NCBI GenBank assembly: GCA_029982755.1
Contig: JARRBR010000023.1
Location: forward strand, 1 to 36,842
Origin: Rhodocyclaceae bacterium
GTDB taxonomy: Bacteria; Pseudomonadota; Gammaproteobacteria; Burkholderiales; Rhodocyclaceae
Length of the DNA stretch: 36,842 nt
Reading direction: 5' to 3'
How positions within the stretch are numbered: position 1 is the stretch's first letter; each line of letters opens with the position of its first letter. The position numbers and the translations under genes are program-made. A model generated the notes under the pieces. It saw only the letters and a program-made list of their open reading frames with translations, made no database searches and was not told the DNA's origin. Shown one piece after another: positions 4,208 to 17,641 of the stretch.

Positions 4208-4272
4208 GCGGCATGCGGGAATGGGACTGCGGGCGTGAAGGGATTGACGCAGCGCCTGCTTGAGCAGCCCCC

Positions 4273-4347
4273 GTGGGAGCGGGCTTGCCCGCGAGTGGCG
4301 GATGCCTCTTGTGGCGCGGCTGCATTCGCGGGAAAGCCCGCTCCCAC
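4273..4347. repeat. REP-type inverted pair
   Basis: Two copies of a 23-base unit, GTGGGAGCGGGCTTGCCCGC at the left (4273-4295) and its inverse at 4325-4347, flank a 29-base spacer. Each arm is itself a hairpin and the two arms can pair with each other. One arm has AAAGC where the other copies have CAAGC. The same unit occurs at 1-23 and 17562-17629. The motif is very like REP sequences of Pseudomonas that are mobilised by RAYT (REP-associated tyrosine) transposases; no such gene is in the window. Confidence 0.88.
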
Positions 4348-4362
4348 GAGGACCTGCGGCGC

Positions 4363-9264: not shown

Positions 9265-9295
9265 GCGCAATATACGTCATTGACGTATATTGCGC
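9265..9295 (+). promoter_or_regulatory. 31-bp perfect palindrome, higBA promoter and operator
   Basis: GCGCAATATACGTCA (9265-9279) and its exact reverse complement (9281-9295) flank a single T. A promoter fits inside it: TTGCGC at 9263-9268 as -35, a 17-base spacer and TATATT at 9286-9291 as -10. Transcription would start near 9298, at or next to the toxin GTG. In HigBA-type systems the antitoxin HTH protein binds such a palindrome and represses its own operon; binding here is inferred from position and symmetry. Confidence 0.75.
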
Positions 9296-9297
9296 GA

Positions 9298-9612
9298 GTG
9301 AGAACAGTTGCTGAAACCGCTATCTTCCAACGCTATGCCAGCGAAGTCTGGTCGGAAGTCGAGCGCGTTGAGTTCATCAACTGGATCGCGGCCAATCCAG
9401 AAGCCGGTGACGTCATCCGGGGAAGTGGCGGCTGCCGTAAGGTGCGTTGGACATCTGCGGGACAAGGAAAACGCGGCGGTGCCAGGGTCATCTACTTCAA
9501 CGCGAACACCGAGACCATTTGGCTATTGATCGTCTACAAGAAAGCCAAGTTCGACAATCTCCCCACGTCCTTCTTGGCGGAGTTGAAGCAAGGAGTCGAA
9601 GATGCCCTCTGA
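9298..9612 (+). CDS. RelE/HigB-type toxin of a type II TA system
   Basis: The 104-residue product begins MRTVAETAIFQRYA and contains EFINWIAANPEAGDVIRGSGGCRKVRW, KRGGARVIYF and ETIWLLIVYKKAKFDNL, the order seen in HigB-2-like RelE-superfamily toxins that cleave mRNA on the ribosome. It precedes and overlaps an XRE antitoxin gene by 11 bases, the inverted order (toxin first) typical of higBA. GTG 9298 is chosen because it lies where transcription would begin, right after the palindromic promoter. TTG 9280 in the palindrome centre is an in-frame alternative. No ribosome-binding site is visible for either, so leaderless translation is likely. Confidence 0.85.
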   Translation: MRTVAETAIFQRYASEVWSEVERVEFINWIAANPEAGDVIRGSGGCRKVRWTSAGQGKRGGARVIYFNANTETIWLLIVYKKAKFDNLPTSFLAELKQGVEDAL

Positions 9613-9883
9613 GATCGAAAAGTTCCAGCAGGATTTGCTTGAGTCCGTCAAGCAAATGAGACGTGGCGACGCCGTGTGCACCACGCGTGTCGAGTTGCCC
9701 GAAGCAGCTCAGGCTCGCGCAAAGACGGGTTTGTCTCAGCAAGCCTTTGCGGAGCTCCTTGGCGTGTCCTCCAGAACGCTCCAGGAGTGGGAGCAGGGTC
9801 GTCGCTCGCCCACGGGTGCCGCCAAGACGCTGCTCCGTGTTGCCGTTGCTCACCCCGAAGTCTTGCAAGAATTGCGTATTTGA
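9602..9883 (+). CDS. XRE-family antitoxin (HigA-type)
   Basis: The 93-residue protein has an N-terminal EIEKFQQDLLESVKQMRRGDA region, which in this family contacts the toxin, and a C-terminal helix-turn-helix at about residues 42-75 with TGLSQQAFAELLGVSSRTLQEWEQG. It would neutralise the RelE/HigB-like toxin and repress the operon through the palindrome at 9265-9295. ATG 9602 lies inside the toxin gene, 11 bases before its stop, so translation is probably coupled. Base composition is lower in GC than the neighbouring core genes, consistent with horizontal acquisition. Confidence 0.88.
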   Translation: MPSEIEKFQQDLLESVKQMRRGDAVCTTRVELPEAAQARAKTGLSQQAFAELLGVSSRTLQEWEQGRRSPTGAAKTLLRVAVAHPEVLQELRI

Positions 9884-12886: not shown

Positions 12887-13788
12887 TCAGGGTTTCCAGT
12901 CGCGCAGTTCGCACACCGCCGTGTCGTCGGGTTGCATGACCTTGCCTCCGCCTGGTGACTTGCAGAGCCGCGTCGACTGTTCGTTGTCCTGCGCAGTGGA
13001 GCGTGCCCACACCGTGACCAGTCCCGAGTTCTCGATCGTCTGATTGCAGCCTTCCTTCGCGTGGAAGGCGTGAATCGCGTTGCGCTCGAAGTAGGTCAGC
13101 CACTCGTGGCTCGGGTCCTGGTTGGCGAACCATTTCTTCCAGCGTCCATCCGAGCCGTCGATGTTCACCGTCCATCCATCGGCGCGACGCTCGTGGTCGA
13201 ACTCGTGGCTGTCCCAGTGCATGACCATGTACTTGTTCTGGTCGATGCACTGAGGCTTGGTCAGTGTCATGTAGATTTCCTGCGGGTGGTGGTAGTGGAA
13301 GGGGTACGAGGTATTGAACAACTGCACCGTCATGCCGATCTCTGCCCCAACCGTCTCGCCATCGATCTGCTTGATGCGCAGGTTGCCCCACGGTCCCATC
13401 AGCTCGGCGTAGAGATAGCCGCCGCGGAAGCGGTCGGCGCCGGCATCCGGGTTCTCCGCATAGAACGGGATCCAGCCGACCGAGGACCACAGCGTCGGCA
13501 GCCCCTTGATGCTCACGTCGCGGCTCCAGTGCACGCTGGTATCGGTGCGGGACGTCACGGCGACGAAGTTCTCATTGAGCTCCAGGCCTGCTGCGCCGAT
13601 CTCGCCGCCCAGCTTGCGGTAGTAGTCCGTCAGCAAGGGCCGGTCGCCGCGTCATACGTTTGAATCGTCGCCTCTGCCGAATCCTTGCACTCGCCCGTCG
13701 GGGTTTCCAAGGCCCGCAAGTACTGACCGAGATATGTCAGTGATTCTTCCCAGAACTGGTCGACCAGGCGCTGCTCCTCCGCTGAAAC
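12887..13788 (-). pseudogene. DMSP lyase-like cupin (DddY/DddL type), truncated and frameshifted
   Basis: Two adjacent frames join near 13637-13643: the first reads [20 protein letters not shown] and ends ATGPC-stop, the second continues [14 protein letters not shown] to the stop at 12887. One base appears lost. The first frame has no start codon; an in-frame TGA lies just upstream in a hairpin. The cupin metal motif is HYHHPQEIY (13271-13297), that is HxHxxxExY, and a further His in RNAIHAF lies 67 residues after the Tyr. As I recall, this matches the metal and catalytic residues of periplasmic DddY (H, H, E, Y and a late H). DddY proteins are about 400 residues with a signal peptide, so roughly 100 N-terminal residues are missing. 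The enzyme class cleaves dimethylsulfoniopropionate to DMS and acrylate. Position after acuR-acuI supports the call. Confidence 0.7.
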
Positions 13789-13821
13789 GGGTGACCGGCC
13801 GCGCGAGACGGCCGGTCACCC
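13789..13821 (-). terminator. Perfect hairpin downstream of acuI
   Basis: GGGTGACCGGCCG and CGGCCGGTCACCC (13-bp arms) flank the 7-base loop CGCGAGA. It lies 14 bases beyond the acuI stop, on the same strand. Only a short T-run follows, so it may be a weak terminator. It also marks the point where the N-terminal part of the lyase-like gene is cut off. Confidence 0.55.
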
Positions 13822-13834
13822 TGGCTCAGCTGGT

Positions 13835-14818
13835 TCAGCGATTGACGTCCACGATCACGCGGCCGCGGATCTCGCCATTGATCAGCTTCGATGCGGCGGG
13901 GATCGCGTCGGCCAACGAAATCTCGGTGCTGATCGTCTCGAGCTTGGAGATGTCGAGATCGGCGCCGAGGCGGCGCCAGGCCTCGAGGCGCTCGGCACGC
14001 GGGCACATCACGCTGTCGATGCCGGCGAGCGTGACGCCGCGCAGAATGAAGGGCGCAACCGTGGCCGGGAAGTCCATTCCGCCGGCAAGCCCGCAAGCGG
14101 TGACGACGCCCCGGTACTTGGTGGTGGCGCAGACGTTCGCGAGGGTATGGCTGCCGACGACATCGACCGCCCCCGCCCAGCGTTCCTTGCCAAGCGGCTT
14201 GCCCGGCGCCGCGAACTCCGCGCGACCGAGCACTTCGGAGGCGCCCAGGCGCTTGAGGTAGTCGGCCTCCTCGGTGCGACCGCTGACCGCGACGACGGTG
14301 TAGCCGAGCTTCGCCAGCACCGCGATCGCCACGCTGCCGACCCCGCCTGCGGCGCCGGTGACGAGGATCTCGCCGTGGGCCGGGGTCACGCCATGGCGCT
14401 CCAGCGCGAGCACGCAGAGCATGGCGGTGTAGCCGGCGGTGCCGATCGCCATCGCCTGCTGGGGAGAGAACCGCTCGGGCAGCGGCACCAGCCAGTCGCC
14501 CTTGAGGCGCGCCTTCTGTGCGAGTCCGCCCCAATGCACTTCGCCGACGCCCCAGCCATTGAGGACCACCTGGTCGCCGGGCTTGTAGTCGGGGTGGCTG
14601 CTCGATTCGACGGCGCCCACGAGGTCGATGCCCGGCACCATCGGGAAGCGGCGAACCACAGGCCCCTTGCCGGTTATTGCAAGGCCGTCCTTGTAGTTGA
14701 GCGTCGAGTGGCTGACGCGGACCGTGACGTCGCCATCGGGCAACTGTGCCTCGTCGATGTCCTTGATGGCGGCACGGTAACCGGCGTCGTCCTTCTCAAT
14801 CAGAATGCCCTTGAACAT
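13835..14818 (-). CDS. acuI: Acryloyl-CoA reductase AcuI (MDR/YhdH family)
   Basis: AcuI reduces acryloyl-CoA to propionyl-CoA with NADPH and detoxifies the acrylate made from DMSP. The 327-residue protein has the MDR fold: an N-terminal catalytic domain with [31 protein letters not shown], the [10 protein letters not shown] segment, and a Rossmann half with [11 protein letters not shown] as the NADPH loop. The late [25 protein letters not shown] stretch is typical of YhdH/AcuI. No structural zinc cysteines are seen. AGGAGGAG precedes the ATG. It lies 49 bases after the TetR gene and is followed by the broken lyase gene. A general quinone-oxidoreductase role is possible, but the neighbours favour AcuI. 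Confidence 0.85.
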
Positions 14819-14835
14819 GCTTCGCTCCTCCTGTT

Positions 14836-14852
14836 TTAGACTGATCGTCTAC
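14836..14852 (-). promoter_or_regulatory. TetR-type operator upstream of acuI
   Basis: TTAGAC-TGATC-GTCTAC is an inverted repeat with arms TAGAC and GTCTA. It lies 17 bases before the acuI ATG, between acuR and acuI, next to an A/T-rich tract that could hold a promoter. The same arms and the same 5-base spacing recur upstream of acuR at 15516-15532. The shared pattern and the adjacent TetR gene support an AcuR operator. Confidence 0.75.
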
Positions 14853-14867
14853 TAAAAATGAAAAAAA

Positions 14868-15506
14868 TTAGGCCTTCTTCAGCCCGGCGAAAAAACCGCG
14901 GGCAAAGAGCTCGAGGGCTTTGTCACTGCGTTCGAGCTTCGCCCGCAACACCGCACCCTCCCAGCCGATCCAGAAAAAGACGGCCGCCTGCTCGCAGTCC
15001 ACGGAACGGGGAATCTCTCCCTGCTGCTGTGCTGCTTCGAGGCAGCGCGCGAAGCGCTGCTCCCAGTCGTGAAACACCGCGTTGAGACGCGCCCGATAAC
15101 TTTCCGGTAACGCGGCCATCTCCTGACCGAGGTTGCCGATCAGGCAGCCGCGGCGGAAATCGTGTCGCTTCATGCCTGCCCGCGCGTCTTCGACGAAGGC
15201 CCACAGGCGATCGAGTGGCCGCATCGACGCATCACCGAAGTGGCGCTCCAGCTTGTGGGCAAAGTAGCGCGCGTACCGCTCGATCAACTCTGCCCCGAAG
15301 GCTTCCTTGCTGTCGAAGTAGTGATAGAACGAGCCCTTCGGCACGCCCACCCGCTTGAGCACCTCGTCGATTCCCGTGGACGAAAAGCCCTTCTCGGTCA
15401 GCGCCTCGAGCCCGGCACGCACCAGCAACTCCCGCGTTTCCAGGGACTGTTCGGGCCGCTTGGGGGGGCGGCCGCGTCGGCGGACTGCGGTTTGCTGTGC
15501 TTCCAT
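14868..15506 (-). CDS. acuR: TetR-family repressor, AcuR-like
   Basis: The 212-residue product starts with a basic RRRGRPPKRPEQSLETRE arm, then a TetR helix-turn-helix (GFSSTGIDEVLKRVGVPKGSFYHYFDSKEAFG). The ligand domain contains RHDFRRGCLIGNLGQEMAALPESYR and FFWIGWEGAVLRAKLE, which closely resemble what I recall of Rhodobacter sphaeroides AcuR, the repressor that responds to acrylate/acryloyl-CoA. It is immediately upstream of acuI on the same strand, as in acuR-acuI-dddL. The ATG at 15506 has no good ribosome-binding site and sits 10 bases after an operator, so translation may be leaderless. Autoregulation is likely. Confidence 0.82.
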   Translation of the reverse strand: MEAQQTAVRRRGRPPKRPEQSLETRELLVRAGLEALTEKGFSSTGIDEVLKRVGVPKGSFYHYFDSKEAFGAELIERYARYFAHKLERHFGDASMRPLDRLWAFVEDARAGMKRHDFRRGCLIGNLGQEMAALPESYRARLNAVFHDWEQRFARCLEAAQQQGEIPRSVDCEQAAVFFWIGWEGAVLRAKLERSDKALELFARGFFAGLKKA

Positions 15507-15515
15507 GGATCAATA

Positions 15516-15532
15516 TTAGACCGCTCGTCTAA
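15516..15532 (-). promoter_or_regulatory. TetR-type operator upstream of acuR
   Basis: TTAGAC-CGCTC-GTCTAA is a perfect inverted repeat with 6-base arms and a 5-base spacer, matching the acuI-proximal site. On the reverse strand it covers a candidate -10 (TCTAAT) that is 16 bases after TTGCAT, so repressor binding would block the promoter. It lies 10 bases before the acuR start. Confidence 0.75.
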
Positions 15533-17506: not shown

Positions 17507-17561
17507 GGCGAGGGGCGGTCCGGTGCGGTCTGCTCGTGTAGCAGCAGCGGTGGGTGTAGCC

Positions 17562-17629
17562 GTGGGAGCGGGCTTGCCCGCGAATACAGCGCTACAGCAT
17601 GCAAAATTCGCGGGCAAGCCCGCTCCCAC
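17562..17629. repeat. REP-type inverted pair between rdgB and hemW
   Basis: GTGGGAGCGGGCTTGCCCGC begins at 17562 and its inverse, TTCGCGGGCAAGCCCGCTCC, begins at 17607, flanking a 23-base spacer. The left unit matches 4273-4295 and the right unit matches 1-23. The pair fills the gap after rdgB and before hemW on the reverse strand and can form a large hairpin in the message. Confidence 0.88.
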
Positions 17630-17641
17630 AGGGCGGCGGCG

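Follow-up and report, generated by a model that had tools for sequence, protein, structure and literature searches.

The 36,842-nt stretch of DNA analysed here (the window) carries intact acuR and acuI genes next to the remains of dddY, a gene of the periplasmic type of DMSP lyase, and we consider this to be, with a probability of roughly 0.8, an instance of an acrylate-regulated operon that has repeatedly lost its lyase while keeping acuR and acuI. The window spans contig C160 in full and comes from G000, a MAG of the genus Thauera (3.24 Mb in 180 contigs, 86% complete). Taken as a whole, the gene loss is of an ordinary kind and concerns an operon type that is already known, though dddY has seldom been noted in this lineage; relatives have several different broken copies, and there is one unexplained sign of constraint on the broken gene.

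An acuR-acuI operon with a disabled dddY

The acuR-acuI-dddY remnant lies between ompA-like/hemW genes and an SDR gene, the chromosomal place that the same genes occupy in Thauera sp. UBA6194 (G012), in which DddY is full (399 aa) and has an apparent signal peptide (by eye). The features of the locus are as follows.

12887-13788, minus strand: disabled dddY (DMSP-lyase-like cupin, periplasmic type), a profile match in two pieces
12887-13636, minus strand: 3' part of dddY, a 249-codon open frame with TTG as first codon, DddY model positions ~150-401, no Shine-Dalgarno ahead
13636-13788, minus strand: 5' part of dddY, an open frame of 61 codons with a profile match, in the other frame, to DddY model positions 35-85
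13641-13646, minus strand: scar of a frame-breaking 193-bp internal deletion at a CGACCG repeat (alignment with G012)
13774-13780, minus strand: scar of a 127-bp deletion at a GGAGGAG repeat (alignment with G012)
13789-13821, minus strand: strong hairpin between acuI and dddY (67-nt fold of -41.9 kcal/mol, z -4.7), without a T-run and shared in sequence with G012
13835-14818, minus strand: acuI, acrylyl-CoA reductase, intact (NF051456, 587.9 bits against a cut-off of 440)
14837-14851, no strand: AcuR-type operator TAGAC-N5-GTCTA before acuI (palindrome search)
14868-15506, minus strand: acuR, TetR-family acrylate regulator, intact (NF051457, 322.1 bits against a cut-off of 247)
15517-15531, no strand: AcuR-type operator TAGAC-N5-GTCTA before acuR (palindrome search)

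The first-pass annotation had proposed the gene order TetR regulator, AcuI, DMSP-lyase-like cupin, with the first two genes intact; profile matches on the minus strand agree with that order, and both intact genes score above their NCBIfam cut-offs. Among 14 control genomes, the AcuR model NF051457 exceeded its cut-off in none (0/14), the AcuI model NF051456 in one (1/14), and the DddY model NF043049 matched in none (0/14). The 249-aa piece matched NF043049, the DddY equivalog, with 534.9 bits (E 9.9e-161), the runner-up being a Shewanella-type DddY model at 187 bits; given an E value of about 1e-160 and the absence of matches in the 14 control genomes, this assignment is not a chance one. In the PDB, the same piece matched 5xkx (E 8e-146) and 5y4k (E 1e-144; named DMSP lyase DddY) over residues 150-401. 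In a genome-wide scan, NF043049 returned two pieces of 541 and 80 bits, both below its curated full-length cut-off of 800, and by its sequence the allele would be classed as a remnant, not as a functioning DddY member.

The gene had been labelled dddY/L, of which the DMSP lyase assignment stands, with DddY as the best match. DddL was rejected, as the NCBIfam matches listed were to DddY models only, and no family outside the lyases matched the cupin better than the DddY equivalog. PF16867 (DMSP_lyase), which spans several lyase types, had no match in the 86%-complete G000 beyond the dddY remnant. The cupin motif HxHxxxExY and downstream His noted earlier are present as HYHHPQEIY and NAIHAFH, and the remnant matches all 141 columns that are invariant across 10 homologues. 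It also retains the Tyr of NTSYP, where chain 5y4k/8hle has Ala; Tyr260Ala is described as a DddY mutation used to trap substrate (PMC10686828).

Alignment with the reference allele, the dddY of Thauera sp. UBA6194 (399 aa, 801.8 bits, barely above the cut-off of 800), revealed deletions of 127 bp and 193 bp (320 bp together), each at a short direct repeat and neither divisible by three. The first took out the ribosome site, the start codon and the signal peptide, about 38 N-terminal codons; one of the two GGAGGAG repeats in the reference is the dddY ribosome site itself, and the stretch corresponding to its signal peptide, which was judged by eye, is deleted in the window. The second took out about 64 internal codons. 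As ribosome site, start, signal peptide and these internal codons are all deleted, a normal periplasmic lyase could presumably no longer be made. Near its beginning the 61-codon frame is devoid of ATG, GTG and TTG and has only a CTG, 6 nt past the fused GGAGGAG, and no slippery site for a -1 slip that would rejoin the two pieces was seen by eye.

Earlier, the gene was thought to have lost its start, with about 100 N-terminal residues, and one base near 13640. A normal start is indeed absent and the frame is broken there, but the alignment gives the two deletions, and a single-base frameshift was rejected; likewise, the total of about 100 residues fits, but their place was wrong (~38 N-terminal and ~64 internal codons). 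Relatives were also checked for a 300-residue gene with a normal start, and none was found: those with a normal start encode about 400 residues, and G027, a Thauera genome with the same shortening, is startless too. A break produced by sequencing or assembly might be suspected in a MAG of 180 contigs, along one of which identity to G027 falls from 96-99% to 82%, but G027 is a single-contig genome and both scars are present in it. The scars are therefore not a sequencing slip, and an artefact, refuted for the scars, is very improbable as an account of the break.

Two copies of TAGAC-N5-GTCTA were observed in the window, while 0.01 would be expected by chance. A looser form of the palindrome lies upstream of acuI in several relatives; in L013, L014, L017 and L019 no such form was found. 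Upstream of acuR, a TAATAT ends 6 nt from the ATG, a leaderless-like arrangement (by eye). A general promoter scan gave 0 sigma-70-like sites, and there was one terminator-like site, at the 3' end of acuR, with 1.8 expected.

The operon resembles the acuR-acuI system of R. sphaeroides as described in PMC3017554, where the AcuR operator is given as TAATAGAC-N6-GTCTATTA and acuR as leaderless: gene order, TetR regulator, TAGAC...GTCTA operator and apparently leaderless acuR are as in the window. It differs in that the operator spacing is 5 instead of the reported 6, an extra operator lies ahead of acuI, and the lyase is DddY, of the periplasmic type, and broken. For Alcaligenes faecalis M3A, the operon order is reported as acuR-dddC-acuZ-acuI-dddY (PMC13104084), with acuI directly 5' of dddY (PMC3338564); the window shares the position of acuI directly ahead of dddY and, putatively, AcuR control, but is without dddC and acuZ between acuR and acuI, and its dddY is broken. 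In the proposed scheme, AcuR would act as a repressor that is freed by acrylate and controls acuR and acuI, and formerly dddY; the lyase, its signal peptide directing export, would have cleaved DMSP to DMS and acrylate; AcuI would reduce acrylyl-CoA; and two deletions at short direct repeats would have destroyed the lyase gene.

Full-length and broken dddY among relatives

Within the genus, dddY was matched in 4 of 29 genomes: full length in G012, with the two scars in G000 and G027, and as a tail only in G028, where 34 codons sit directly behind acuI. A sample of 297 genomes from the family contained 10 with a match (G012 lies outside that sample), and among 399 genomes of the order, dddY was found only in the window's own. 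The family total is thus 11 genomes with dddY sequence. Six are full length without stops (G012, G130, G136, G217, G259 and G279), although the genes of G130 and G217 score 759 and 770 bits, below the 800 cut-off. The other five (G000, G027, G028, G106 and G112) are broken in about four ways: in addition to the forms described above, residues 198-378 are left behind a ribosome site in G106 (A. aalborgensis), and residues 289-399 in G112, where an assembly error is possible because the contig measures 5.8 kb. AcuI exceeded its cut-off in 11/11 of these genomes and adjoins dddY in 10, the G112 copy being on a separate contig.

The DNA of the window remnant is 96-97% identical to dddY of Thauera sp. 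UBA6194. A scan of named genomes with the remnant as query yielded 12 loci, from which records very close to the window genome were possibly left out. Ten of them (L008-L017, with L008 from Thauera sp. UBA6194) have a dddY that is full length or nearly so, in one frame; L018 is the A. aalborgensis remnant; and in L019 (5593-6790, a Candidatus Accumulibacter appositus MAG) dddY lies in two frames, with no acuI found in the 12.8-kb locus. In L011 (2655-5476, an Accumulibacter MAG), an insert of about 1.8 kb splits acuI upstream of a full-length dddY. This insert holds a 456-aa ORF with YADD, which by our own reading of its sequence resembles the reverse transcriptase of a group II intron. Given the missing match in L019, the split copy in L011 and the separate contig in G112, acuI is not always kept beside dddY. 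The position of acuR also varies: it directly precedes acuI-dddY in L008, L009, L016 and L018, lies upstream of acuI at a distance of about 2.5 kb in L010 and L015, and gave no match in loci L011-L014, L017 and L019; in L014 and L017, dddY precedes acuI. The acuR-acuI-dddY order is therefore the form of Thauera and some of its kin, not of all relatives.

PMC5395565 describes dddY as rare among marine bacteria; among the relatives here, the name of Denitromonas halophila suggests a saline habitat. A limited literature search returned no report of dddY in Thauera, for which a record may exist elsewhere, and none linking dddY to Accumulibacter or a DMSP lyase to Rhodocyclaceae.

Probable exchange with a second lineage and apparent constraint on the remnant

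The window is 98-99% identical to G027 over positions 1-21,846; identity then drops to 96% as far as about 25.2 kb and to 82% between 25.3 and 31 kb, the end of the stretch compared. At three other places, G000 and G027 are mostly 83-92% identical, apart from two pieces of 0.9 kb (79%) and 0.6 kb (66%), and at one of these places G012 is closer (92-98%). Given this mosaic identity, the broken allele seems to have been carried from one lineage to another on a long segment, probably by exchange between species, unless the contig is chimeric. In G027, some 15 kb of additional sequence lies between 4102338 and 4117259. Two further features of the window are a dispersed repeat of about 80 bp (4269-4357 and 17560-17638), found also in the compared stretches of G027 and G012, and a RelE-like toxin gene (9280-9883; 22.4 bits, where the Pfam cut-off is 27) next to an HTH antitoxin-like gene.

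Between the window and G027, acuI shows 6 synonymous changes and 1 nonsynonymous change (dN/dS 0.06), acuR 4 and 1 (dN/dS 0.08), and the dddY remnant (291 codons) 4 and 0. The chance that all changes in the remnant would be synonymous is 0.002 unweighted and 0.006 with transition bias. None of its 681 nonsynonymous sites is changed, while a synonymous rate of 0.0234 predicts about 16 changes; this rate is pooled from acuI, acuR, ompA and rph and excludes hemW, rdgB and SDR, whose rates are all higher. At a three times lower rate (0.009), six nonsynonymous changes would be expected and the probability of observing none is 0.002, while the total count of changes is unremarkable (0.11). The lack of nonsynonymous changes argues against a long-dead pseudogene shared by the two genomes.

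One reading of this constraint, which we consider unlikely, is that the 249-codon remnant is translated, through coupling or in some unusual way, into a trimmed and unexported cytoplasmic DddY cupin core that is under selection. The wholly synonymous differences and the unchanged nonsynonymous sites would favor it, as would the four differences from G027 in the adjoining 54-bp gap (13781-13834, read off the alignment) and the retention of every invariant column. A strong ribosome site (dG -9.5) also lies 6 nt upstream of the CTG in the 61-codon frame, and the stop codon of this short frame overlaps the TTG with which the 249-codon one begins. That TTG, however, is the only early start of the longer frame and is without a Shine-Dalgarno: its ribosome-site strength is dG -2.1 kcal/mol, compared with -9.5 for full-length G012 and a background median of -2.5. 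The signal peptide and the N-terminal part are missing, and the changes number just four, a count that the lower rate makes unremarkable. A structure prediction for the 249-aa remnant gave a mean pLDDT of 39 (one run, 11-row alignment), too low to be of use. Other broken copies also speak against selection on a core: the G106 remnant, with 22 synonymous and 6 nonsynonymous codon changes specific to it (11 and 4 for full-length L012, 12 and 0 for L011), is likewise without clear relaxation, so recent loss may explain both remnants, and the 34-codon tail of G028 appears looser (dN/dS 0.33). The constraint may come from recombination that imported the scars after the flanking changes had arisen, from chance, or from real function.

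Retention of acuR and acuI

Recurrent loss of the lyase with acuR and acuI kept accords with the first-pass proposal that the strain lost the lyase and kept acrylate detoxification, and it fits the intact acuR and acuI, the retained operators and the low dN/dS; the acrylate role itself would follow from family membership. The pair and its two operators are most likely kept because acrylate or acrylyl-CoA still arrives from neighbors or from other chemistry. The operon acuI is perhaps not the sole detoxifier, as G000 has a second, stand-alone acuI over cut-off (L036, contig C47), which lies outside the clade of operon AcuI.

A compatible alternative is that acuR and acuI serve a substrate unrelated to the bacterium's own DMSP cleavage, such as acrylate from elsewhere, 3-hydroxypropionate or another enoyl-CoA, and that dddY was a passenger; we hold this to be possible, if somewhat doubtful. 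AcuR exceeded its cut-off in 8 of 29 genomes of the genus, always beside acuI, and four of these have acuR-acuI without a dddY match; moreover, of the 399 genomes of the order, just the window's own has dddY, and PMC3017554 and PMC3338564 describe pairs of acuR and acuI that have no known connection to DMSP, as well as resistance to acrylate through AcuI/YhdH. The AcuI tree, on the other hand, suggests a lasting partnership and not a recent insertion. In this tree of 30 rows (the split L011 copy, the stand-alone copies of G001 and G017, and the second copies of G136, G259 and G279 are not in it), the 10 dddY-linked copies of the family, including that of the window, form one clade (97/97) with the four acuR-acuI-only Thauera copies, while 13/13 stand-alone copies fall outside it; the grouping of the dddY-linked copies beside those four is weak (80/51). 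The dddY-linked AcuI of Competibacter and two Rhodospirillales also fall outside the 97/97 clade.

Taken together, recurrent lyase loss would leave these bacteria with an acrylate-responsive pair after probable loss of DMSP cleavage. Pairs of acuI and dddY, some with acuR, are now placed in Thauera, Accumulibacter, Denitromonas and their kin, where different kinds of damage have struck the lyase gene and acuI has mostly been retained. Full-length and broken alleles at one locus offer a comparison that may distinguish whether acuR and acuI serve the bacterium's own DMSP cleavage or acrylate produced by others.
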